Source: Bacteroidota bacterium
GTDB lineage: Bacteria; Bacteroidota; Bacteroidia; UBA8524
Reading direction: 5' to 3'
DNA: 64,000 bases
Assembly: GCA_006226545.1 (NCBI GenBank)
Contig: SBGR01000071.1
Location: 1 to 64,000 of the forward strand
The notes under the pieces are model-generated. The model was not told the DNA's origin. It saw only the letters and a program-made list of their open reading frames with translations, and ran no database searches. A program made the position numbers and the translations under genes. Shown one piece after another: positions 1,285 to 23,291 of this stretch; position 1 is the stretch's first letter; the number at the start of each line of letters is the position of its first letter.

Positions 1285-2511
1285 TCAAGCTAATTCTTCA
1301 CCCTTTTCAACTTTGCTTTCTGCAAAGGCGTCGAGGGAGCCGAAGAGGCTGATTTGAACCGGTTGTTCACCGAGGTTGATGTTCTGAAGGCGCTCTAAGC
1401 CGGTATAGGGATTATTGCGAATAGGCACAGTATAACGCAATGCCGCTCCATTACCCATGCTGCGAACCAATCCCATTTCCATCAGCTCATTGAAATCGCG
1501 TTGAATGGTTTTTCTGTTGAGACGGTAAATAAGCGAGAGGTCTTTGGTGGAAGCGAAATGGTGTTCGTAGATGAACTCCATGATCTGCACGTGACGATCA
1601 TTCTGCTGAACTTTGCCCTTCGGCATACGCAGTCGGAAACCTTCGTCGAAGAAATAATTGACCATATTGCGCTGACGAGGGGTGAACTCATCAAACTCAA
1701 TCTTTTCTTGGTATAGGTTACGCAAGCGTAGGTTGGCAGACTCCAGCGATTCCAACATGGCCTCAATGGCAAAATTGAGCATGCCGCTTAAATCGCTCTC
1801 CATAAACTGCTGCGTGTCTTTGAACTTCAGCTGGTCTACAATGCGTTTGTATTGTTGTTGGCGATTTAGCCAAGCACTATTCAAAAAGATACTGCCTGCC
1901 GCATCGGCTTTTCCCATCGCTAAATAAAACTGCTGAGCCGTGCGTGCCAATACGCTATAATGTGGTTCGGCAGGTAAAGCATTAAGGATAAGGAAATGTA
2001 CCAAGATGGAAGCGAGGACCATTTCTTCGCCATTAAGTTGGGGAAGTAAGTCTTCTAAACTGAGCAGGTAATTGTGCAACGGCCTATCAAATGCCGGCGT
2101 CTTGCTCTGGCTTTCAAACCATTCCATAATCAACTCCTGCTGATCAAAATGCTGCAAGAGGTAATGGTAATCGCAAAGGCTTTGGTAGAAATCAGTACGG
2201 CCTTTGAAACGGTCTTGGAAGAATTTGATTTGAGCGATGTCTGCTCCGTATTTTTCTTCCAGTCGGGTAGCAAACTTGAAAAGTTCATCCGGATTATTGA
2301 TCCGAACCGATTCTTTATCGAGGCTAACCTGTAGGGCGCAATCCAGAATGGAAGCTCTACCGAGCTCTTCTTTGTAGCGTTTACCCTCCAACCCGAAGTG
2401 TTTTATTTTTTGTGGAATATCCTCACACAATTGCGCACAGCGCTGCAACTCTTCTCGCTTGAGACGAGAATCGCTCAGTAACTGACCAATGCGAAGTTTA
2501 TCCATATCCAC
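1285..2511 (-). CDS. Winged-helix (DeoR-like) domain protein of unknown function
   Basis: A 408-residue soluble protein. The first 280 residues are helical and charged and I do not recognise them. Residues about 310-370 form a winged helix-turn-helix of the DeoR/HTH_11 kind: HVQIMEFIYEHHFASTKDL, then NRKTIQRDFNELMEMGLVRS as recognition helix and wing. This arrangement resembles transcription regulators and the C-terminal wHTH seen in some Fic proteins, but I find no Fic motif (HPFxxGNGR). The start MDMDKLRIG gives two possible in-frame ATGs, and the upstream one is used here. hflX lies 200 bp upstream on the same strand. DNA binding is inferred from the C-terminal domain only. Confidence 0.7.
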   Translation of the reverse strand: MDMDKLRIGQLLSDSRLKREELQRCAQLCEDIPQKIKHFGLEGKRYKEELGRASILDCALQVSLDKESVRINNPDELFKFATRLEEKYGADIAQIKFFQDRFKGRTDFYQSLCDYHYLLQHFDQQELIMEWFESQSKTPAFDRPLHNYLLSLEDLLPQLNGEEMVLASILVHFLILNALPAEPHYSVLARTAQQFYLAMGKADAAGSIFLNSAWLNRQQQYKRIVDQLKFKDTQQFMESDLSGMLNFAIEAMLESLESANLRLRNLYQEKIEFDEFTPRQRNMVNYFFDEGFRLRMPKGKVQQNDRHVQIMEFIYEHHFASTKDLSLIYRLNRKTIQRDFNELMEMGLVRSMGNGAALRYTVPIRNNPYTGLERLQNINLGEQPVQISLFGSLDAFAESKVEKGEELA

Positions 2512-2568
2512 AGCACAAATCTACTGTATTCAAGCCCTAGGGCGACAAGGGCTAAAAAAGATGCGTAA

Positions 2569-2590
2569 AGCTTATCCACAAAAATAAGCT
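2569..2590. promoter_or_regulatory. Inverted repeat containing a DnaA-box match
   Basis: AGCTTAT (2569-2575) and ATAAGCT (2584-2590) are perfect inverted arms. The left arm overlaps TTATCCACA (2572-2580), the classical strong DnaA box. It sits in the 200-bp gap between hflX and the wHTH gene. One box alone does not make an origin; it could be a regulatory site or chance. Confidence 0.35.
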
Positions 2591-2713
2591 ATTTATGCAC
2601 GGGTAGAAAGTCCTGAATTGGGAAACGCTTAGTGCTGCAAGCAGTAGCGAAAAATAGACAGCATTAAAAAACTGTAAATAACTCCTCGGGAATTATTCCA
2701 AAAATGGGGCGGA

Positions 2714-3919
2714 TTATTTGTTCTCCATGGCCTTAAAGGCATAGAGGCTTTCCACGGTACGGGTAATTTTGTCCCGTAACTCTTCAATATTGTTCTTTTT
2801 TTGCGCGGAAATGAAAATAACGGGGGAATTCTCCCTGGCCATCCAGGTTTTCTTGAGCTGGGCAAGGGATTCTTCTTCGCTCAATACAATCTCCTCGTTG
2901 AAAAGTCCTGCATCCTGATCCGGGAGCTCATACAAATCAATTTTGTTGAAAATCATAATCACCGGCTTGTCGTCGGCTTTGATGTCCTTCAAGGTTTCTT
3001 TTACCACACGGATATGTTCTTCAAAGCGCGGATGAGAGATGTCTACCACGTGCAAGAGCAAATCCGCTTCACGCACTTCATCCAAGGTCGATTTAAAACA
3101 TTCGATTAATTGATGCGGGAGCTTGCGGATAAACCCAACTGTATCAGAAAGTAGAAAAGGGATATTCTCCAGCACAACCTTACGAACGGTTGAGTCGAGC
3201 GTAGCGAAGAGTTTATTCTCGGCCAATACCTCGCTTTTACTTAACACATTCATAATGGTGCTTTTGCCCACGTTGGTATATCCAACCAAAGCTACCCTGA
3301 TTTTATCATCGCGGTTGGATCTTCTGGTGACACTTTGTTTATCGATGTCACGTAAGCGTTCTTTCAATAAACTGATTTTATCCAAAATAATCCGACGGTC
3401 GGTCTCAATCTGAGTTTCACCCGGACCTTTCATCCCGATACCCCCTTGCTGTTTACTTAAGTGAGTCCACATGCGGGTCAAGCGAGGAAGCAAATACTGC
3501 ATCTGCGCCAATTCTACCTGGGTCTTGGCCTGAGCAGTCTGAGCCCTGGAAGCGAATATGTCAAGAATCAAATGACTGCGATCTAGAATCTTCGTGTTTA
3601 AGGTCTTCTCCAAGTTGCGGATCTGACTCGGACTTAACTCGTCGTCGAAGATCACCATACTCGGTTTTTCCTCTTCCGCGTAAAGACGGATATCTTCCAA
3701 CTTTCCTTCGCCCACGTAGGTGCGCGAATGCGGATGATCTAATTTTTGTGTAAATTTCCTGAGTGTCTTCGCTCCAGCCGTTTCAGCCAGAAATTCGAGT
3801 TCATCCAAGTATTCTTCGGTCTGACCTTTGGGTGCAGATTTATAATCAACCGCAACGAGGAAGGCTGTTTCCTGTTCCGGCGTGGTTTCAAACAATTTTC
3901 GTTTTAGCTTCGGACGCAT
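2714..3919 (-). CDS. hflX: GTPase HflX
   Basis: A 401-residue GTPase of the Obg-HflX group that binds the 50S subunit and splits or rescues stalled ribosomes. The N-terminal glycine-rich nucleotide-binding part includes YVGEGKLEDI and PGETQIETDRRII. The G domain (about residues 200-370) has G1 GYTNVGKST, G2 region ATLDSTVRK, G3 DTVGFI and G4 NKID. The frame is open upstream to 4093, but those residues lack family similarity and overlap the divergent gene. The start MRPKLKRKLFETT is therefore chosen, which fits the usual Bacteroidota length. Its ATG lies 4 bases from the ATG of the divergent secreted-protein gene, so its promoter must lie inside that gene. Confidence 0.93.
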   Translation of the reverse strand: MRPKLKRKLFETTPEQETAFLVAVDYKSAPKGQTEEYLDELEFLAETAGAKTLRKFTQKLDHPHSRTYVGEGKLEDIRLYAEEEKPSMVIFDDELSPSQIRNLEKTLNTKILDRSHLILDIFASRAQTAQAKTQVELAQMQYLLPRLTRMWTHLSKQQGGIGMKGPGETQIETDRRIILDKISLLKERLRDIDKQSVTRRSNRDDKIRVALVGYTNVGKSTIMNVLSKSEVLAENKLFATLDSTVRKVVLENIPFLLSDTVGFIRKLPHQLIECFKSTLDEVREADLLLHVVDISHPRFEEHIRVVKETLKDIKADDKPVIMIFNKIDLYELPDQDAGLFNEEIVLSEEESLAQLKKTWMARENSPVIFISAQKKNNIEELRDKITRTVESLYAFKAMENK

Positions 3920-3923
3920 ACAA

Positions 3924-5738
3924 ATGAGGTGCAAAGTTAACTTCTTTCTCTTAGCCTGTTTGTGCTCAGGCAGTTTCTTATCGGCACAATCTACTTTGAA
4001 CTGGCAAACGGTGCCTGTACAAGTGGAGAAATTGGCGCTTATTCCTGTCTCAGTTGAGGCTGAAGATGCGCTGGTTGAAGTGGTGCACGGCATTCCGGCT
4101 CATGCTTCTCACGCCTCAGAAAGTCCTGGTATTCAAGAGCAAAAAAGAATTTTAAATAGCCAAAAGCGTTCTAATCAGGTTCAGTATAAAAACCAAAGCG
4201 ATAGCATTGCGATAAGCGGTGTTTTTGAAGCGAACCCCATTCAGAATTTCACACCCATGGACAATTCCATGGCCTTCGGAAAAGGAGGTTATATCGTGAG
4301 TGCGGTAAATGCCAATTTCGCTGTTTTTGATAGCAGTGGTGTGCGTTTGCAGTACAGCACCTTCCGCCAGCTTACGGGTAATCCGGTATTAAACGGACGA
4401 TATTTTGATCCACGTGTAATCTACGATGTGGCCGCTGAACGCTTCTTGATGTTGATCCTCTATGGAAATACGTCGGCCGATTCGCGCATCTTGCTTTTTG
4501 TATCCAAAACGAGCAATCCATTGCAAGGCTGGAACAAGCTGGAAATAGATGGAAGCCCAGGCAACTCGGTTATCTGGTCGGATTTTCCCAATTTGGCGGT
4601 ATCGCGCAACCACGTTGTGATTACCACCAATCTTTTTGGCGATAACGGTGGTGCTTTCAAAGAATGTGGAATCTGGACAGTGCCTAAATCGACTTACTAT
4701 GCCGGCCAAGTCGTTTCTGCCAATTACATTTCAGGTGCTGCCAATGGTTCAGGACGAAAGCCTTTTACCTTAATTCCGGCCATGGACGTAGTAGAAGCTC
4801 CCTCAGGAACAGATTTGTTTTTAATCAGCACGTATGCCGGCGGAAGCGATCAACTGGATGTCTATAACTTAGACACAGACCATGCTGTACTGAGTTTTTA
4901 CGAGGCAAAAATGAACACGTATGCCATGGCAGCTGATGCCGCACAATTGGGTTCTAGTTACCTGCTCGATGTGGGCGATTGCCGAGTTACCTCTGCCTTC
5001 TACAGAAACGGGCTTGTACATTTTGTCTTTAACCGAAAATCAAGGTTAGAATCGTGTGAGATACGTTATGGCCGACTGGACCTTAGCAATGGATTGGTTG
5101 CTGAAACCAGTGTATCCTATGGAGGGGAATCAGCGTATGCGGCTGTCGCACCGGTAAATAAACAAACGAATAAGAGCGATGTGATCATCGGTTTTCTCTA
5201 TGCAGGAAGCGCACACTATGCTTCGTTCGCCTATACCTATATTAGCGATGATATGGTAGTCTACCCGGCTAAAATTGTCAGGACTGGCAATAGACCCATT
5301 GAGCTCTTAAGAACCGGCGAAGAGCGTTGGGGAGATTATACCACAGCCAGTTTTGATGCTTTTAGTCCGGATGCTCAATCGGTGTGGCTGGTTGGCTCGG
5401 TTGCTTCTACGCAAGGCGCTTGGGACAATTACCTGGTTCGTGTCAATGCCAATTCTGACCTGAGCGAGTTTGAATTAAGCGAAATCAAAGCCTTTCCAAA
5501 TCCGTTTTCCAATCGCTTGAGTGTACACATTCCTTTGACTGAAAATGCTGAAATTACGGTGGTGCTCTGCGATGAAAAAGGAGCACAGGTGAAAGTGCTT
5601 TACAATCAAGTCTTGAGTAAGGGAAATCAACTCCTGCAGTTTGAAGGCTTGAGTTTGTCTTCCGGTATTTACATCTTGCAAGTATGGAATACTAAAACAC
5701 TGCTTTTTAGCGATAAACTAATAGTAGCCTATGAATAA
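3924..5738 (+). CDS. Secreted protein with T9SS type A sorting domain
   Basis: 604 residues. The ATG at 3924 is preferred over the upstream one at 3882 because MRCKVNFFLLACLCSGSFLS is a good signal peptide, cleaved near SAQS. The central 500 residues are beta-rich and unassigned. The last 80 or so begin KAFPNPFSNRLSVHIP and end GIYILQVWNTKTLLFSDKLI, the T9SS type A (Por_Secre_tail) domain that directs export across the outer membrane and surface attachment. It overlaps the next gene by 8 bp, and a third gene follows after 3 bases, so the three are probably co-transcribed. The start lies 4 bases from the hflX start on the other strand. Confidence 0.85.
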   Translation: MRCKVNFFLLACLCSGSFLSAQSTLNWQTVPVQVEKLALIPVSVEAEDALVEVVHGIPAHASHASESPGIQEQKRILNSQKRSNQVQYKNQSDSIAISGVFEANPIQNFTPMDNSMAFGKGGYIVSAVNANFAVFDSSGVRLQYSTFRQLTGNPVLNGRYFDPRVIYDVAAERFLMLILYGNTSADSRILLFVSKTSNPLQGWNKLEIDGSPGNSVIWSDFPNLAVSRNHVVITTNLFGDNGGAFKECGIWTVPKSTYYAGQVVSANYISGAANGSGRKPFTLIPAMDVVEAPSGTDLFLISTYAGGSDQLDVYNLDTDHAVLSFYEAKMNTYAMAADAAQLGSSYLLDVGDCRVTSAFYRNGLVHFVFNRKSRLESCEIRYGRLDLSNGLVAETSVSYGGESAYAAVAPVNKQTNKSDVIIGFLYAGSAHYASFAYTYISDDMVVYPAKIVRTGNRPIELLRTGEERWGDYTTASFDAFSPDAQSVWLVGSVASTQGAWDNYLVRVNANSDLSEFELSEIKAFPNPFSNRLSVHIPLTENAEITVVLCDEKGAQVKVLYNQVLSKGNQLLQFEGLSLSSGIYILQVWNTKTLLFSDKLIVAYE

Positions 5739-12500: not shown

Positions 12501-13217
12501 GTGGTTCGTAAACTATCTATTGTAATTCCAGCCTACAATGAAGGCAAAACTATTCACTTCATTTTGAATAAAGTGAAAGAAGTTGAACTAATTGGAGGAA
12601 TCGAAAAGGAAGTAATCGTGGTTAACGATTGTTCTAAAGACGATACCGTTGAGGCTGTTGAACGCTATATGAAGGCCAACCCTGATTTACCAATTACCTT
12701 TTATTCGCATGAGGTGAACAAAGGTAAGGGGGCAGCATTGCATACCGGCATTGAAAAAGCGACCGGCGATGTTGTGATTATTCAGGATGCCGACTTGGAA
12801 TACGACCCGAGAGAATACAATGATGTATTGAAGCCATTCCGCGAAGAGGTGGCCGACGTGGTTTATGGTTCCCGTTTTATGGGTGGTAATCCACACCGTA
12901 TCCTATTCTTCTGGCATACCATCGGTAATAAATTTTTAACCACCTTATCCAATGCCTTCACCAACTTGAACCTTACCGATATGGAAACCTGCTACAAGGC
13001 TTTCAATCGTGAGATTATTCAAAGTCTGGATTTGAAAGAAAAGCGATTCGGATTTGAGCCGGAAGTGACAGCACGTATTGCGCGTATCAAGAATATCCGC
13101 ATCTACGAAGTGGGTATTTCATACTACGGCCGGACTTACGAAGAAGGTAAGAAGATTGGTTGGAGAGATGGCTTTAGAGCCATTTGGTGTATTTTGAAAT
13201 ACAACTTGTTTCGCTAG
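12501..13217 (+). CDS. GT2 glycosyltransferase, polyprenyl-phosphate mannose/glucose synthase type
   Basis: 238 residues. The GT-A fold opens with [14 protein letters not shown], the acidic pair is in [11 protein letters not shown] (the DxD metal site), and [12 protein letters not shown] is the acceptor-side motif shared with dolichol-phosphate mannose synthases. There is no C-terminal membrane domain, so it is the short soluble class that charges polyprenyl phosphate with one sugar. The start is GTG at 12501; no ATG precedes the first strand. A degenerate -7 box TTTCTTTG lies at 12476-12483. The divergent GT-C protein could use its product. Its stop interlocks with that of the response regulator (CTAG, 13214-13217). 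Confidence 0.9.
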
Positions 13218-13603
13218 AAACCTTCGCGCCCTAGCGCTTCTTTTAACTCTACAATATTTAAAGGCTTTTTGATAAACTCAGACACGAGTGGACTGGCCTT
13301 CGCCTTGCTTATATCGCCAAAATCAAGTGAGGATGAGACCATGAAAATGCGTGTTTCCTGTTCTCTATCGCTATAGAAACGGTCGTAAAACGAAAGGAAT
13401 TCGAAGCCATCCATTTCCGGCATCTGAATGTCTAGAAGGATGATATCCGGTGTGGTATTCTGCAGGTAATCCAAGGCGGCTTTTCCCGACAGAAATTTGT
13501 CGACATGATTCGAGATACCAGCCAGTTTGATCAATTTTTCATGCAGGAATAAATCAATCTCGTTATCGTCAACGAGGATAATATGTGGTTGCGACTTACT
13601 CAT
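13214..13603 (-). CDS. Stand-alone response regulator (CheY-like)
   Basis: 129 residues, a single receiver domain and nothing else. The acidic pocket is in ILVDDNEID, the phospho-acceptor Asp is in [13 protein letters not shown], and the conserved Thr/Ser and Lys are in MVSSS and FIKKPL. It has no output domain, so it would act by protein contact or phosphorelay. It is the last gene of the five-gene operon that starts at 19797 and overlaps the kinase fusion upstream by 8 bp, so translation is likely coupled. Confidence 0.92.
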
Positions 13604-14687
13604 GAAGGTTTGGTAGGATTAGTTCAAATGTGGTTCCTTCACCGTAGACCGACTTCACTTTGATTTCGCCTCCAATTTTATTGAGGGCTTCTTTAACAAT
13701 ATAAAGTCCAATGCCGGTGCCGGGCGATTTCTTAGACGATTTGGTACGGAAGAACATCTTGAAAATACTTTCCATGTGCTCTTGTAGGATTCCTACACCG
13801 TTATCCTGTATCGATAAGAAGGCATATTTTGGTTCTGTGCGGATGGTGATGTTTACTTTTGGTACTGTGCCATCTTCTTTTTGGTATTTGATGGCATTGG
13901 AAATGAGGTTATTCAGTATCACGCGTATTCTGAATTCGTCATTTTGAAAGGGTAGTTCGTCGTTGATATTGACTTCAAACTCAACGGTCTGATCGGTGTT
14001 TTTAAGCACAGCAATGGCATCGTCTACCAACTCTTTGAAGTTGATGTTTTCTTTCAGCCCTTCTGCCCGTGCATTTTGGTAGTATTCTATGATGTTCTGA
14101 ATGAACGAATCCAGCTTCAATACGCTGCTTTCGATCATCTGGAGGTATTCAAAAGGATCGGAGTTTTCTTTGTCGAGGCGTGATAATTCAACCAATCCTA
14201 GAATCGACATCAATGGTGCGCGAAGATCGTGAGAAGCACTGTACACAAATCGATTTAACTCATCGTTGGTCTTCTGAAGTTCTTCGTTCTTAAGCTTGAG
14301 TTCCTTTCTGGCCAAATAGGTGGCATGGAAGGTCTCAATTACGTTACGTAAAAAGTTAGGATCCCAGGGCTTCACCACGTATTGGTCAATACGTCCTTTG
14401 TTTACCGCATCGATAATGGTTTGCGAATTGGTATAGGCGGTGATGAGTATTCGGATGACATCAGGATGTTTATCGTGCACCCTTTCAAAAAATTCAACAC
14501 CCGACATCTTCGGCATTCGCTGATCCGCTAGGGCGATGTGAATTTCTATTTCATCCAGGATACGGAAGGCATCGGCAGCATTGTTTACGGTGTAGATTTC
14601 GAAGTTTCTACGAAAGCCCGCTTTAAATGCTTGAAGGTTATTGTCCTCGTCATCCAGGTAAAGTACTCTGATTCTGTCCTTGCTCAT
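13596..14687 (-). CDS. Receiver-histidine kinase fusion protein
   Basis: 363 residues. An N-terminal receiver (1-125) with VLYLDDEDNNLQAFKAGFRR and DQRMPKMSGVEFFE is followed by a coiled coil, a DHp helix pair with the phospho-acceptor His in SASHDLRAPL (about residue 155), and a GHKL ATPase (N box LNNLISNAIKY, G boxes DNGVGI and GTGIGLYIVKEAL). No membrane segment: a soluble kinase controlled by its own receiver. The receiver is a close paralogue of the one at 19917 (the two share DDExNNLxAFKA and DQRMPxMxGVEF). It starts 8 bases after the end of the 7TM kinase and overlaps the next regulator. Confidence 0.93.
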   Translation of the reverse strand: MSKDRIRVLYLDDEDNNLQAFKAGFRRNFEIYTVNNAADAFRILDEIEIHIALADQRMPKMSGVEFFERVHDKHPDVIRILITAYTNSQTIIDAVNKGRIDQYVVKPWDPNFLRNVIETFHATYLARKELKLKNEELQKTNDELNRFVYSASHDLRAPLMSILGLVELSRLDKENSDPFEYLQMIESSVLKLDSFIQNIIEYYQNARAEGLKENINFKELVDDAIAVLKNTDQTVEFEVNINDELPFQNDEFRIRVILNNLISNAIKYQKEDGTVPKVNITIRTEPKYAFLSIQDNGVGILQEHMESIFKMFFRTKSSKKSPGTGIGLYIVKEALNKIGGEIKVKSVYGEGTTFELILPNLHE

Positions 14688-14695
14688 GTGGGCTA

Positions 14696-16852
14696 TCAGT
14701 CTTCAGCGTTAATTTGTGCTACAATGGGTAAAGTTACTAAGAATTCTGTTCCTTTACCAAGCTCGGTATTAACCTGAATCTTACCACCATGTGTTTCTAC
14801 AATTTTAAAGACAATGGAAAGTCCTAAACCGGTTCCTTCTCCCACCTCTTTGGTGGTATAGAAAGGCTCAAAGATTCTGGATCTAACAGAGTCAGGCATG
14901 CCGGGTCCTGTATCTGCAATGGATACGTATACATACAAATCGTCTGCTGTGGTTTTAACCTTAAGCTGGTCTTTATGTCCCTCTTTTCTAGGCTGCATCG
15001 CCTGCAACGCATTGTTCAAGATATTCATAAACACCTGATTCACCTTTCCAGGGAAACATTCTACCATCGGTAGTTCACCATAATCTGTAACCAGCTCTAC
15101 GTGATCCGGAATGGAGTTTCGTAAGATGACCAGGGTAGATTGAATGCCTTCGTTGATATCAGCAGGCTTTAAATCAGATTCGTCCAAACGGCTGAAGGTC
15201 TTGAGTCCCTTAACAATCTCAGCTGTGCGTTCAGCACCTTCGGCGATGCCTTTGAGCAATTGCTTGATTTCAGTCTGGATATAGTTGTAATCGAGTTGTT
15301 CTTTAAATGCCAATACTTCTTTCAGTTTGGCCTCTTTGTCGCCCTCTTCACTTTTGGCTACATCTTCGTATCGCTGAACCACCTCGAGGATGTCTTGAAT
15401 ATCCAAACGTAGCGGCTCCACGTTGGCGCTAACAAAGTTGATGGGGTTATTGATTTCGTGGGCAATACCCGCGGTTAACTGACCTAGCGATGCCATCTTT
15501 TCTGCCTCTACCAACTGAGCTTGGGTTTCTTTCAAGTGATTTAAGGTAACAACAAGCTCTTCATTGGTCTCTTCGAGTTCCAAGGTGCGTTCTTTCACTT
15601 TACGCTCCAAATTCACGTTTTGTTCACGTATAATTTGTTCATTTTCTAGCGATACCCGAAGGGCCTCTGCTTGTGAAGCTTCTTTTTCCTTTTTCAGGAT
15701 GTTGATACGATCAGCCAAGGCAAAGGAGAGGAGCATTACTTCAATGGCAGATCCAATAGGCATCATGTAGTAGGTGAGCGGAGTATATGGCAATATGCCC
15801 ATGTCCTTCATTACATAGATACCAATGCCGATAAGGAATACACTCCAAGCAATGGCAAACCAAGTAGCCGGACGGTAACCTTGACGTGCTATGCGCACCG
15901 CAGAGATCATCATGCTGGCAGATACGATTATAGCCGTGACTTCGATGGCGTAGAAGCTGATATCGTAATAGCCTATAAAGGCTAAACCGGCACCAATTAC
16001 ATACGCAATGGAAGTAATGATAAATACCTTATCGAAGAACTTGACGTGGTGGCGAACATCCAAGAATACCCGCATGAATTGCATGCCTGAGATTCCGACG
16101 AGTACCGGGAATATAAAGCTATTGTAGCGAGCCAACGCCGGCCAGTTTGGCCATAAATACTGGAAGCTATACCCTTGAATACTAGACTGTGTAAGAATTA
16201 CGCAGAACAGGTAAAGCACATAATAGGCATACGATTTATCCCGGGTACTGAAGAAAATAAAGGCATTGTAAAGGAGCATCACCAGCATGATACCTAGGTA
16301 CAAGCCGGAGAAAATATCTCTTCGCTTATTGATTTCGAGGATACTTTGTCTTGAACCCACCAAGATGGGTACCTGAAGGTTTTCCTTGCTTCGAATTTTT
16401 AAGTAGAGGTCTTTGCCTTCTTGGGGAGCTATTTGAACCGGAAATAAGTAGTTCGGGTCATCGTAATAGCGATCATCAAATTTGAAGTATTCTCCTGCTC
16501 TTAAAACGCGTAAGCCACTTTCGGTCGAGTCGAACAGCTCCAATTCATCCAAAATAGGCTGAGAAACTTCCAAGATTAGTTCGTCTACATCGCTTTGGTT
16601 CTGCACATGTAGTTTTATCCAGATGGTGGAAGAAGTAATACCAAAATTGGGCACGTCCTTATTCGGTATTTCCTTAAAAGACATTCCTTTCACTTCATCG
16701 AAGGATAGGTTGTTTCCCGGGTCTTCCAAATACTGGCACTTGTTTTTGATTCGGATATAATTGTCCGCATCCTGCAAAACGTTCACGTATTGAGCTTGCA
16801 GTGCAGCGCTCAGAAGCATGAACAGTCCTATGAAAATATGCCTTGCTTTCAT
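14696..16852 (-). CDS. 7TM-DISM sensor histidine kinase
   Basis: 718 residues. Signal peptide (1-22), then an extracytoplasmic 7TMR-DISM extracellular domain (about 25-165, with FGITSSTIWIKLHVQN and ELELFDS). Seven membrane helices follow (about 185-390, beginning LYLGIMLVMLLYNAFIFFS), then a coiled coil, a DHp region with His in GIAHEINNPINF (about 470) and a GHKL ATPase (FMNILNNALQAM, DTGPGMPD, GTGLGLSIV). Domains of this kind are thought to sense carbohydrates or other small ligands. The GNAT-like gene upstream overlaps its start by 4 bp, so sensor and enzyme should be produced together. The ligand is unknown. Confidence 0.93.
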   Translation of the reverse strand: MKARHIFIGLFMLLSAALQAQYVNVLQDADNYIRIKNKCQYLEDPGNNLSFDEVKGMSFKEIPNKDVPNFGITSSTIWIKLHVQNQSDVDELILEVSQPILDELELFDSTESGLRVLRAGEYFKFDDRYYDDPNYLFPVQIAPQEGKDLYLKIRSKENLQVPILVGSRQSILEINKRRDIFSGLYLGIMLVMLLYNAFIFFSTRDKSYAYYVLYLFCVILTQSSIQGYSFQYLWPNWPALARYNSFIFPVLVGISGMQFMRVFLDVRHHVKFFDKVFIITSIAYVIGAGLAFIGYYDISFYAIEVTAIIVSASMMISAVRIARQGYRPATWFAIAWSVFLIGIGIYVMKDMGILPYTPLTYYMMPIGSAIEVMLLSFALADRINILKKEKEASQAEALRVSLENEQIIREQNVNLERKVKERTLELEETNEELVVTLNHLKETQAQLVEAEKMASLGQLTAGIAHEINNPINFVSANVEPLRLDIQDILEVVQRYEDVAKSEEGDKEAKLKEVLAFKEQLDYNYIQTEIKQLLKGIAEGAERTAEIVKGLKTFSRLDESDLKPADINEGIQSTLVILRNSIPDHVELVTDYGELPMVECFPGKVNQVFMNILNNALQAMQPRKEGHKDQLKVKTTADDLYVYVSIADTGPGMPDSVRSRIFEPFYTTKEVGEGTGLGLSIVFKIVETHGGKIQVNTELGKGTEFLVTLPIVAQINAED

Positions 16853-17538
16853 GGGGTTAGGGTCATCAGTAATTGATAATTCACTTGAAAAGGTCCTTTT
16901 GGTCCTGTTTCCATATGGATTTGGTTCGGTTCGCTTCGTAAGCTAAGCATGCGTTCACGGTCTTCTTCTTCAGCGGTCTCCAGGTTACGGGCATTTAAGA
17001 TACCCAATACCCTAGCGATGTAGTTTTCATTAGGGTAGACAAATTCGCCACTAGATCCGAGTGAGCCATCTACCACGAAACCTACTTTCGTGAACATCTT
17101 TAAGGTATAATCTGCACAAATGCCTACCATGATATTAATACCAACTTGGCTGGCAATGGAGATACCTGCGCGGGTTAGGAGCATGCTGAGTCCTACTCCG
17201 GCTACTTTTTTTGAATTCCACAAGGCACATAGTTCGCCAACGCCGGCACTAACATAGGCGCCTACAATTTCGTGTATGCGAGGGTCCATAAAGCCAACGG
17301 CCCGTTCCACCGGCAGCATGTTTTTCCCATCTGCTTTTTGAACGCGAATACCGCCGACCATCTCACCGTGTTCGTCGTACGCTACCACACAGTAAACCAC
17401 ATCAAGCTTGGTCCATTCCTGATTATTGGAAGTGATATTGGTGATGCCATAATCACGCAATACCTGCACATGGCCTTCCGCATACATCTGACACAGCTCG
17501 GGTTCCTCTGCAGCCTTGAATGCTTTAAACGTAAACAT
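16849..17538 (-). CDS. GNAT-fold acyltransferase, FeeM/autoinducer-synthase-like
   Basis: 229 residues. The N-terminal half has the strand pattern of acyl-homoserine-lactone synthase or N-acyl amino acid synthase (FeeM) folds: YCVVAYDEHGEMVGGIRV, then ELCALWNSKKVAGVGLSMLL. Residues 111-116 (KVAGVG) fit the acyl-CoA loop [R/Q]xxGx[G/A] with Lys in the first place, and ICADYTLKMFTKVGFVV is the usual last GNAT strand pair. Family-level identity is tentative. Its ATG follows the stop of the ThiF/nitroreductase gene directly (TAAATG) and it overlaps the 7TM kinase by 4 bp. Acyl transfer to an amine made or activated by the neighbouring enzyme is the obvious inference, but it is unproven. Confidence 0.65.
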   Translation of the reverse strand: MFTFKAFKAAEEPELCQMYAEGHVQVLRDYGITNITSNNQEWTKLDVVYCVVAYDEHGEMVGGIRVQKADGKNMLPVERAVGFMDPRIHEIVGAYVSAGVGELCALWNSKKVAGVGLSMLLTRAGISIASQVGINIMVGICADYTLKMFTKVGFVVDGSLGSSGEFVYPNENYIARVLGILNARNLETAEEEDRERMLSLRSEPNQIHMETGPKGPFQVNYQLLMTLTP

Positions 17539-19797
17539 TTACCCCCTAATTAGTATTTCTTCTACCGGCCTACGTAAAGCAATTTCAGTGGGCTTATCGG
17601 CAAAAGATATGCGGAACATAAAAATTCCTCTTCTTTCCTGCAAGATGGGTATAATTTTAATCAGATCTTTTTCAAATGACCTAATTTCTTCCACATTTTC
17701 AGTAGTTAAGAGGTGATTTGCTTTCTTTATTCTATTGATGAAGAACAAAGGTGCTGAAATGGGTTGAACTGCCCAGCCGTTCATGTTGGTTCGAATCCAA
17801 GCACGCATGGCGGCCTGTCCTCCCAACAACAAATCAGGTTTTTGGGCTTCCGGCAGTGTGATGATTCCGATAGCCGAGGAGGTTAATACCGCATCTCTGC
17901 TCACTTTTTCAATGCCCTTGCCGCCTTTCCAGTCGTTGATAAGCTTTAATACAGCCGGATCACTCATTACCTCTAAGCCGGTTACATCGCTAGGAGCTAG
18001 CTCATAGGTTAGAATATCCAAGCCATCCCGGGTGCTTTCTACCTGCTCTCGGTTCCAGCGTAGTTCATGTCCGAAGAATTCATGGTGTCCTTGGGGGTGC
18101 AGGAACCTGATTTTCTCCGCTCTAGCTAGAATATTTCCTATTTCAGCAATATCAGAAGAGTTTTCAACCACGTCGAAACGTGCTCCCGGAATACTTGCTA
18201 TGTCTTCTTGAATAATTGGAATAAGGCTTTGATCAAATGGGCGACGGTCGCCTTTTTTCCGATTGGAACAACGCTGAAGCAAGTTTACCGCCAATACACT
18301 CGCCTCCTCTTGAGTTGGCTCAAAGCGAAAGGCTGCAATCAACGGATGGCTGTTTTCAATCTTTTCAGCAGTGCATTTTAGTCCGAGTTTTTCGGCAGCC
18401 AGTTTCATGGATTCTATCGCGGCGCCTAAGCTGATAAAGGCTAAGCTATCGTCGTGGTCAGTCCATGAATAGGAGCGTTTTTTATCGTGGAATAAGAACA
18501 GGGCAGAGCCGAAATAAAGCCATTTCCAGGGCTGGTTGTTTCCGGCTGATGGCGCATTGCCTGCCATTTTCACCAATTCCTCTGCGGTTTGATTATCGAG
18601 TGAGCCACCGGTAATACCCGATTTCTTCGCCAATTCCTGCATCGCTAAAGTATCCAATTCAGGGTAATCGTAGCTATCGTAGGTATAGGCGGGCTTTAGC
18701 TTATCCTGGTCAGAGATGAGTTGATCCAAGTCGATAAAATAACGCCCTGAATCGCGAAACTGATCTAAAAAGATGCGACGAACGGTATCCGCTGCTAGTG
18801 CACCGCCCATGGCAACCGCCGTGGCTAGCTGCGGCCAGGTATGAATGGTTTGGCCAATCTCAACCATACTTGCCTTTAGGCGTTTGGAAATGGTATCGAT
18901 GCCAAAAATGGGCATCATAAATGGCACTTTTTCTTCGTTGGTGAGCTTGCCCAAGTTGGAATAATCGAGGTGTTCTAACCAACCGTGCATGATGGGCCTT
19001 TCCGGCTCCAAGTCAAATCGTTCTACGTCGATGGTACCTCTATCGCTCATGTCCATCACCACCGGAATGGCTAAGGATTTTGCCTTCTTCCTCAGGTTAA
19101 GTTTGATATCGATGCTATCACATTCGTCCACAATCAGGTCTAAATCGCCGCCCTTGTGGAAGAAGTCGTCCATGTTCTCCATGGTTAAACCATCGGTGTA
19201 TACCTGAATCCGGAAATAAGGATCTATTTCTTTGATTTCGCGGGCTACCGCAATGGCTTTGTTTACGCCAATATTGTGAACTCCCGAACGGATGCGGTTC
19301 AAATTTGCTAACTCTAACTCGTCAAAGTCGGCAATGCGTAATTCGTTGCAAATACGCTCCATCGCTAAAACGAGGGAAATAGACTGTCCAACGGAAAGGC
19401 CAACTACCCCAACAGTTTTACCATGGAGAATGGCTTGTTCCTTGCGGGTGATTTTGGGCACATTCGGGCTTGTACGCGTGAAGATGAAGTCTTCTTCAGG
19501 GAGCATGCGGATGAGTCGACGCGACCATGGGTAGTAAACCCAGTTGCCGTAAGAAGATTTTGGATTTTCGACTAAAAATTGGCTTACTGCTTCTTTCAGA
19601 CTTTCGTTTTTAAGCTTTTTCGCCGGGAACTTGGCCTTGAGCATTTCAGAAATTTGCGACTCCAAAGAATCGTGAATTTCAACCTGAGGGTTTTTAAGCA
19701 GTTCTTTTAGTGGTGTGGGTTCGGCGGATTCGAGCAAACTAGCGGGAAATATGTCGGGTTCCCATGTTTGATCAAGTTGGCCTTGATGGGTATTCAT
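17539..19797 (-). CDS. Rv1355c-family ThiF/E1-like and nitroreductase fusion
   Basis: 752 residues. About 1-120 is a helical N-terminal part. About 121-340 is a ThiF/E1-like Rossmann domain: GVVGLSVGQS (130-139) binds ATP, ADFDELELANLNRI (156-169) carries the acidic and Asn/Arg residues of the adenylation site, and DLIVDECDSIDIKLNLR is the later E1 motif. I see no CxxC zinc pairs and no clear thioester Cys. About 405-730 is a nitroreductase/flavin oxidoreductase domain (NAPSAGNNQPWKW). This two-domain order is that of the Mycobacterium protein Rv1355c (MoeY), whose role is unknown. It is first in the operon, abutting the GNAT-like gene. Activation of a carboxylate followed by oxidation or reduction of the product is a plausible chemistry. 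Confidence 0.85.
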   Translation of the reverse strand: MNTHQGQLDQTWEPDIFPASLLESAEPTPLKELLKNPQVEIHDSLESQISEMLKAKFPAKKLKNESLKEAVSQFLVENPKSSYGNWVYYPWSRRLIRMLPEEDFIFTRTSPNVPKITRKEQAILHGKTVGVVGLSVGQSISLVLAMERICNELRIADFDELELANLNRIRSGVHNIGVNKAIAVAREIKEIDPYFRIQVYTDGLTMENMDDFFHKGGDLDLIVDECDSIDIKLNLRKKAKSLAIPVVMDMSDRGTIDVERFDLEPERPIMHGWLEHLDYSNLGKLTNEEKVPFMMPIFGIDTISKRLKASMVEIGQTIHTWPQLATAVAMGGALAADTVRRIFLDQFRDSGRYFIDLDQLISDQDKLKPAYTYDSYDYPELDTLAMQELAKKSGITGGSLDNQTAEELVKMAGNAPSAGNNQPWKWLYFGSALFLFHDKKRSYSWTDHDDSLAFISLGAAIESMKLAAEKLGLKCTAEKIENSHPLIAAFRFEPTQEEASVLAVNLLQRCSNRKKGDRRPFDQSLIPIIQEDIASIPGARFDVVENSSDIAEIGNILARAEKIRFLHPQGHHEFFGHELRWNREQVESTRDGLDILTYELAPSDVTGLEVMSDPAVLKLINDWKGGKGIEKVSRDAVLTSSAIGIITLPEAQKPDLLLGGQAAMRAWIRTNMNGWAVQPISAPLFFINRIKKANHLLTTENVEEIRSFEKDLIKIIPILQERRGIFMFRISFADKPTEIALRRPVEEILIRG

Positions 19798-19870
19798 TTT
19801 GGATTATGTGATTTTGTTCAGGGGCAAATTAAATACTTGAACTAACATTTCATTTATTTCCGGCCAAGAA

Positions 19871-19900
19871 TTGATTGGAAGAAAAGTATTTTTAAATTTG
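19871..19900 (+). promoter_or_regulatory. Promoter of the divergent response regulator
   Basis: TTG (19871-19873), 19-nt spacer, TAAATTTG (19893-19900): a full match to the Bacteroidota TTG-N19-TAnnTTTG pattern, 16 bases before the ATG at 19917. The opposite strand of the same gap has only a degenerate TTAATTTG box for the operon. Confidence 0.75.
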
Positions 19901-19916
19901 ACAAGGGGATAATATC

Positions 19917-20378
19917 ATGTTGGAGACTATTTGCGTACTCTACGTCGACGATGAGGAGAACAACCTTCTCGCATTTAAAGCTGCATTTCGTCGCGATTTT
20001 CAGGTAATTACGGCCATCTCAGGCGCTGAGGCTTTAGAAAAGTTGAAGGAGCATGAGGTACATGTAATCATCACAGACCAGCGCATGCCTGGTATGACGG
20101 GTGTGGAGTTCTTGCAAAAGGTAATTCCGCTCTATCCAGATCCAATTCGTATCCTCCTGACAGGCTATAGCGATATCAACGCAGTAATTGATGCCATCAA
20201 CAAAGGCGAAGTTTACCGCTACCTAACTAAGCCTTGGGACAATGAATTCCTCAAAACAACGATCAGACAAGCGCATGAAGTACTTCACCTCCGTGCAGAA
20301 AATGAGCGTTTGGTGGATGAACTAAAGCGTGCTAATGAGCAGTTGGAGTTCTACCTCAGGCAGAAACTCCTTTCCTAA
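19917..20378 (+). CDS. Response regulator with C-terminal coiled coil
   Basis: 153 residues. The receiver (1-125) has VLYVDDEENNLLAFKAAFRR, phospho-acceptor Asp in IITDQRMPGMTGVEFL, and the switch Thr and Lys in LLTGYSD and YLTKPWD. The last 28 residues are a charged helix (NERLVDELKRANEQLEFYL), a likely dimerising coiled coil. There is no DNA-binding domain. It is transcribed away from the ThiF/GNAT/kinase operon from its own good promoter, and its receiver is a paralogue of that in the kinase fusion at 13596-14687, which ties it to the same circuit. Its stop lies 9 bases from the end of the convergent phosphohexomutase gene. Confidence 0.92.
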   Translation: MLETICVLYVDDEENNLLAFKAAFRRDFQVITAISGAEALEKLKEHEVHVIITDQRMPGMTGVEFLQKVIPLYPDPIRILLTGYSDINAVIDAINKGEVYRYLTKPWDNEFLKTTIRQAHEVLHLRAENERLVDELKRANEQLEFYLRQKLLS

Positions 20379-22922: not shown

Positions 22923-23291
22923 TTAAGGTTTCTTTTCTTCTTTTTTCTTAGGCGTGGTCTCTGCCGGTTTTTGGCAGCAGCCTTTTTTCTCTTCCTTGCT
23001 GCAGGCTTTTTCGTCTTTGGCTTTGTTTTCAGCCTTGCAACAGGCTTTGCCTTCAGATGCGCCTTTTTTACAGCAGGCTTTTTCTTCTTTCTTTTCTGCT
23101 TTCTTCTCTTCTTTCTTTTCTGCTTTCTTCTCTTCTTTCTTTTCTGCTTTTTTATCGGCAGGAGCGGTAGTAGAAGGAGCTGGAGCCGTTACTTCCGGTT
23201 TCTTTTCTTTCTGGGTGCTGTCGTTAGACTGCGCGCTTGCAGCAAATGCGAAGCCGCATACTAAGCAGGCCATCATTACTAATCTCTTCAT
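22923..23291 (-). CDS. Secreted low-complexity Lys/Glu/Cys-rich protein
   Basis: 122 residues. A signal peptide (KRLVMMACLVCGFAFAASAQ) precedes a Pro/Thr/Ala linker. Three tandem copies of KKAEKKEE (about residues 47-70) follow, then four Cys-containing modules: KACCKKG, KACCKAE, KACSKEE and KGCCQKP. Three of them carry vicinal Cys pairs. No known family. A periplasmic or surface metal- or envelope-binding role is possible, but composition alone cannot show it. The nucleotide repeat that encodes KKAEKKEE makes this reading frame prone to slippage. It has its own -7 box at 23312-23319 and a terminator directly downstream, so it is monocistronic. Confidence 0.75.
   Translation of the reverse strand: MKRLVMMACLVCGFAFAASAQSNDSTQKEKKPEVTAPAPSTTAPADKKAEKKEEKKAEKKEEKKAEKKEEKACCKKGASEGKACCKAENKAKDEKACSKEEKKGCCQKPAETTPKKKEEKKP

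Follow-up and report, generated by a model that had tools for sequence, protein, structure and literature searches.

In the Bacteroidota, TrzA-like N-acyltransferases and one subgroup of 7TMR-DISM sensor histidine kinases form a near-obligate pair, as shown here by computation. In the window (the whole stretch of 64,000 nucleotides from a Bacteroidota bacterium that was analysed) the pair is encoded in an operon together with a TrzS-like enzyme, a receiver-kinase fusion and a lone receiver. The pairing is what is new; the biochemistry of the two enzymes is already known, Rv1355c (TrzS) and Rv1356c (TrzA) having been shown in December 2025 to make N-acyl tryptazolones together (PMC12856293). 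For the authors of that study the physiological role of oxazolones is a major unsolved problem, with signalling considered only as a possibility; they note c-di-GMP genes beside the locus of Mycobacterium tuberculosis, and two-component systems go unmentioned (PMC12856293). We think that the operon is probably a synthase-receptor signalling module, which would use an N-acyl amino acid oxazolone or, in sister loci, an ester. If true, the Bacteroidota would have a dedicated synthase-receptor pair, a kind of system that is little known in them and of which no description was found for this phylum in the literature searched. The pairing makes the physiological role of oxazolones testable in culturable genera (Pedobacter, Mucilaginibacter, Daejeonella, Algoriphagus).

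The operon and its proteins

Five genes are packed on the minus strand from position 19797 down to 13214, with joins of 0, −4, +8 and −8 bp. They encode, in this order, the TrzS-like protein (17539–19797; 752 aa), the TrzA-like protein (16849–17538; 229 aa), the 7TMR-DISM sensor histidine kinase (14696–16852; 718 aa), the receiver-histidine kinase fusion (13596–14687; 363 aa) and lone receiver 1 (13214–13603; 129 aa; PF00072, E 1.6e-17). A second lone receiver with a short helical tail and a PhcQ-like layout (19917–20378, plus strand; PF00072, E 2.3e-20) is transcribed divergently, and its receiver resembles that of the fusion (137 bits between the two). Arrangement, coordinates, joins and this resemblance had all been claimed in the preliminary description and were confirmed. 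For the 119-bp region between the divergent genes (19798–19916) no common regulatory motif was found, the enriched words stemming from receiver coding sequence, and a scan of the same stretch for Bacteroidota-type promoters scored just slightly over shuffled sequence. Elsewhere in the window (22923–23291) lies a gene for a short secreted protein that consists mostly of KKEEKKAEKKEE repeats and cysteines.

The TrzS gene is present in a single copy in the 3.45-Mb draft genome that contains the window. Its product scores 744 bits against NF005901 "Rv1355c family" (cut-off 476) and is a fusion of a ThiF-type cyclase (residues about 84–360) with an Acg/nitroreductase-type flavin oxidase (residues about 399–744). 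The ThiF core domain (residues 114–272; 18982–19458, minus strand) is recognized by PF00899 (E 1.9e-16), and the flavin-dependent oxidase domain (residues 399–744; 17566–18603, minus strand) by NF011424 and NF047509 of the Acg family. In Foldseek, the best PDB match of the AlphaFold2 model (pLDDT 84.9) is the Acg homologue 2YMV (E 3.5e-13 for the oxidase domain), with E. coli ThiF (1ZFN) among the next best and TcdA also in the match list. TcdA is a ThiF relative that closes an oxazolone on tRNA. For TrzS the same two structures, 2YMV and ThiF, were used (PMC12856293). When mapped via mycobacterial homologues, the tested ATP-site residue D217 of Mycobacterium smegmatis TrzS is equivalent to D227, which does not vary among 111 fusion and 20 ThiF-only relatives; the FMN-site residues Arg540 and Gln651 of the same enzyme have R564 and Q678 near their places in the alignment with a constant offset of 2, the Q678 position being occupied by H in 9 of 19 relatives. 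The statement of the preliminary description that the Rv1355c family has no assigned role is outdated, Rv1355c being TrzS (PMC12856293, December 2025).

The TrzA-like protein has no Pfam match over the cut-off (FR47, E 0.009). However, its AlphaFold2 model (pLDDT 93.6) is predicted to have a LuxI/FeeM fold, the best PDB matches found with Foldseek being the CoA-dependent AHL synthase BjaI (E 3.4e-8) and the N-acyl amino acid synthase FeeM (TM 0.61–0.63), with further matches to TofI, MesI and EsaI. The earlier suggestion of a FeeM/autoinducer-synthase-like GNAT, for which a comparison of the predicted structure with FeeM and LuxI folds had been asked, is thus borne out. A likeness to BjaI and FeeM has also been reported for TyzA in the literature on oxazolone pathways. 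W42, R65, E102 and W107 are invariant in an alignment of 50 rows. The assignment of the window fusion and GNAT to TrzS and TrzA is well supported, since family score, catalytic residues and fold prediction all fit, and we regard the enzyme class assignments as very likely correct.

The sensor kinase (PF07696, PF07695, PF00512, PF02518) consists of a periplasmic 7TMR-DISMED2 sensor domain (residues 37–164; 16361–16744, minus strand; PF07696, E 4e-30), a 7TM region (residues 179–382; 15707–16318, minus strand; PF07695, E 2e-55) and the kinase domains. Its DISMED2 domain is related in sequence to the sensor domain of RetS (PDB 3jyb, 2xbz). The receiver-kinase fusion (PF00072, PF00512, PF02518) has a PhcR-like layout. 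In a Pfam domain search neither the fusion nor the other receivers of the window were found to carry a DNA-binding domain.

Pairing of TrzA with a kinase subgroup

The pairing was followed in 395 genomes of the class by comparing lists of matches by position. With a profile of the sensor region 74 places scored at least 334 bits, after which the score falls in one step to 311 bits or less, and this step defines the kinase subgroup; a TrzA profile yielded 76 places in 75 genomes. Both were present and adjacent in 73 genomes, the kinase alone in one, TrzA alone in two and neither in 319 (Fisher 3e-76, a figure that overstates independence because the sampled genomes are related). The kinase subgroup adjoins TrzA in 73 of 74 genomes. 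As for the two genomes with TrzA alone, one has the gene at a contig end and the other has a divergent copy (76 bits versus at least 211 for the others). None of seven paralogous kinases scoring below the step adjoins TrzA. The sole subgroup kinase in a genome without TrzA (L198:9328–11421) is located beside an L,D-transpeptidase-like gene.

A similar picture is obtained when loci are fetched by TrzS: 70 of 80 named loci have the fusion, TrzA and the kinase above the thresholds, and six of the remaining ten stop at or near a contig end. At L157, L160 and L183 a kinase is found by direct comparison (513–522 bits) that is below the profile threshold. At L184, which is labelled Blastocatellia, TrzS is present with neither TrzA nor kinase, and the fusion comes directly after a protein of 370 aa whose GNAT domain is a different one (1720–5153). 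An apparent loss of the kinase at L060, L064, L066 and L086 was traced to errors in ORF calling, the kinase being found when all open frames were scored.

Related loci occur, for example, in Pedobacter, Mucilaginibacter, Daejeonella, Algoriphagus and Dyadobacter. Of the 110 loci whose flanks are complete, 104 have the PhcQ-like receiver, 98 the receiver-kinase fusion and 55 lone receiver 1. Gene order varies: TrzA can precede or follow TrzS, the receiver lies upstream in some loci and downstream in others, and the fusion kinase can stand in front of TrzS; in one locus (L048:11120–12776) two TrzA genes stand in tandem with TrzS on one side and the kinase on the other. Flanking genes differ between loci, and the set spans 21 family codes, while most of the genomes have none of it. 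Because the order is not fixed across these 21 family codes, it is the set itself, and not one inherited order, that is retained. Relatives whose two enzymes are never adjacent to sensor kinases, and a GNAT structure without an acyl pocket, which the preliminary description had named as results that would speak against it, were not found in Bacteroidota.

As far as seen, the link to a sensor is a feature of the Bacteroidota, because in the Actinobacterial plasmid loci examined no sensor kinase adjoins TrzS. On a Rhodococcus plasmid the neighbours of TrzS include a GGDEF protein and a weakly TrzA-like one, mycobacterial plasmids have TetR and P450 genes there, and in Streptomyces plasmids the partner of ThiF is either a GNAT or a ketoacyl synthase. 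For example, at L212 (5155–8206), on a Streptomyces plasmid, the ThiF protein is followed by a beta-ketoacyl-ACP synthase III and not by a GNAT, which may indicate another acyl donor route.

A putative signalling module and the alternatives to it

In the proposed module TrzA would join an acyl group to an amino acid, after which TrzS would use ATP to cyclize the carboxylate to an oxazolone, and FMN and O2 to desaturate the latter. The product, which would be neutral and partly hydrophobic, could get to the periplasm or to neighbour cells and there bind the 7TMR-DISM sensor, from which phosphate would be relayed by the receiver-kinase fusion and both lone receivers to a target, perhaps by a route like that of the quorum-sensing relay Phc of Ralstonia. 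That the kinase senses the product of its own operon is in our opinion somewhat more probable than that it does not. That one operon both makes and senses a small molecule had been suggested before: the suggestion is strengthened by the TrzA-kinase pairing, the LuxI/FeeM fold and the likeness to phcBSRQ, and sensing of the product is the part that we infer. Its further claim that the molecule is exported is unsupported, since a transporter is not part of the conserved gene set. Against the module speak this lack of a conserved transporter, the accumulation of tryptazolones inside the cells in Actinobacteria, where the acyl-tryptophans were in the supernatant (PMC12856293), and the absence of a kinase beside TrzS in the Actinobacterial plasmid loci examined.

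The enzyme that acts after TrzA is exchangeable. Four types are found at module loci: the ThiF-oxidase fusion, ThiF alone, a SAM methyltransferase and an ICMT-type carboxyl methyltransferase. Kinase loci without TrzS have in its place either a SAM methyltransferase with TrzA (7 genomes) or an ICMT-family protein with TrzA (1 genome). The ThiF domain occurs without oxidase in 20 genomes, and a separate oxidase elsewhere in these genomes was considered and rejected: a search detected no homologue (0 of 20), the same search finding the oxidase in 10 of 10 fusion controls. For every one of these enzymes an N-acyl amino acid is a possible substrate, to be modified at its carboxylate; for the methyltransferases we judge so from their families. 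One genome (G212) has TrzA and the kinase on one contig without a tailoring gene (L199) and TrzS on another contig (L084). One locus of the methyltransferase type (L195) is followed by a response regulator whose receiver is joined to a LuxR-type DNA-binding domain (12874–13515), so that the output there can be transcription, with this protein as a candidate.

Do the sensors follow the chemistry? With kinase-domain sequences, a single clade of the methyltransferase-type loci is rejected (p-AU 0.00075). In a quick tree of the sensor sequences the methyltransferase loci form one clade, as they do in sensor trees with 7 rows (SH-aLRT 99) and with 6 rows (94.7). Several rows are long branches. A careful tree has two changes, and a single methyltransferase clade is claimed only as not rejected (p 0.42) for this reason. 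The distances of TrzA, ThiF, sensor and kinase correlate with one another to a similar degree throughout (0.41–0.63), which is uninformative. Taken together, the trees are a weak hint and no proof that the sensor domain changes along with the chemistry. Perhaps the Bacteroidota have a whole family of systems for signalling between cells by small molecules, in which a LuxI-fold acyltransferase and a dedicated 7TMR-DISM receptor are a constant pair. The enzyme that caps the carboxylate would be exchangeable (an oxazolone cyclase, with its desaturase or lacking it; a SAM methyltransferase; an ICMT-type methyltransferase) and would give each system a signal chemistry of its own, which the sensor domain follows; we put this forward tentatively.

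The adjacency of TrzA and the kinase also fits a control of synthesis by the kinase. The relay would then adjust synthesis to an outside cue, and the oxazolone would be the output (a membrane lipid, a stress metabolite or a weapon) and not the signal. Links of oxazolones to stress have been discussed and their induction by antibiotics in Proteobacteria has been reported (PMC12856293), pathways under local regulation usually have a regulator divergent from an operon, and the DISMED2 domain is related to that of RetS and not to a known autoinducer receptor. On the other hand, the kinase subgroup keeps with TrzA even where the tailoring enzyme has been replaced, and a cue unrelated to the product would need no pairing as strict as this. 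Moreover, local control of transcription is not evident because the receivers of the window are devoid of DNA-binding domains. We consider regulated synthesis unlikely, although it is the main alternative.

It is quite improbable that the kinase senses an intermediate or a hydrolysis product (an N-acyl or N-acyl-dehydro amino acid), for which the oxazolone ring would be a delivery or protected form. In its favour, acyl-tryptophans are found mostly in the supernatant, and the oxazolone ring opens with acid or alcohol (PMC12856293). The locus L199, where TrzA and the kinase have no tailoring gene next to them, points in the same direction; but its genome does have TrzS, at L084, and a carboxylate-modifying enzyme is kept in almost all other complete loci. 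That the genes are neighbours by descent only, with no common function, is disfavoured and very improbable: the sampled genomes are related and an operon can move as a block, but the set persists across its 21 family codes with rearranged order and different flanks, while most genomes are without it.

Comparison with known systems

The signalling module that we prefer has parts in common with several known systems. RetS-like 7TMR-DISM sensors have the same DISMED2 and 7TM architecture as the window kinase, which nevertheless belongs to a distinct subgroup (at least 334 versus at most 311 bits) that is tied to TrzA. With LuxI-type AHL synthases (BjaI, TofI, EsaI) and FeeM, TrzA has the fold in common at a sequence identity of 11–15%. 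LuxI/LuxR systems make a lactone, however, which is not expected from the window TrzA, and the cytoplasmic LuxR-type receptor typical of them is absent in and beside the operon, as judged from gene calls and a domain search.

In its layout the signalling part is the same as that of phcBSRQ of Ralstonia (signal 3-OH MAME/PAME), which comprises a synthase, a kinase, a receiver-kinase fusion and a lone receiver without DNA-binding domain (PMC8578825, PMC6989110). The signalling parts of the window match this part list, and in both systems the lone receiver without DNA-binding domain resembles the receiver of the fusion, the comparison being one of layout. A SAM methyltransferase as last enzyme, present in some relatives of the window, adds to the likeness. 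The systems differ in that the Phc signal is a hydroxy fatty acid, whereas the backbone of the window signal would be an N-acyl amino acid, and in that Phc acts through PhcA, no PhcA being known for the window module. When plasmids were searched with the receiver-kinase fusion, the matches were kinases of a general kind, apart from one of full length without annotation (L215), which has no counterpart of the module's enzymes among its neighbours.

The enzymes, finally, are very likely those of an oxazolone pathway. TrzAS (Rv1356c-Rv1355c), which is grouped with OxzAB and TyzACB, likewise has an N-acyltransferase gene adjoining a ThiF-flavin oxidase fusion, whose NCBI family is that of the window fusion, and between TrzAS and the window the tested residue D217 is kept and the fold matches are the same. 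For none of these pathways is a sensor described in the related literature searched. Unlike the known TrzAS, the TrzAS-like pair of the window is surrounded by signalling genes, for a 7TMR-DISM kinase, a fusion of receiver and kinase, and receivers.
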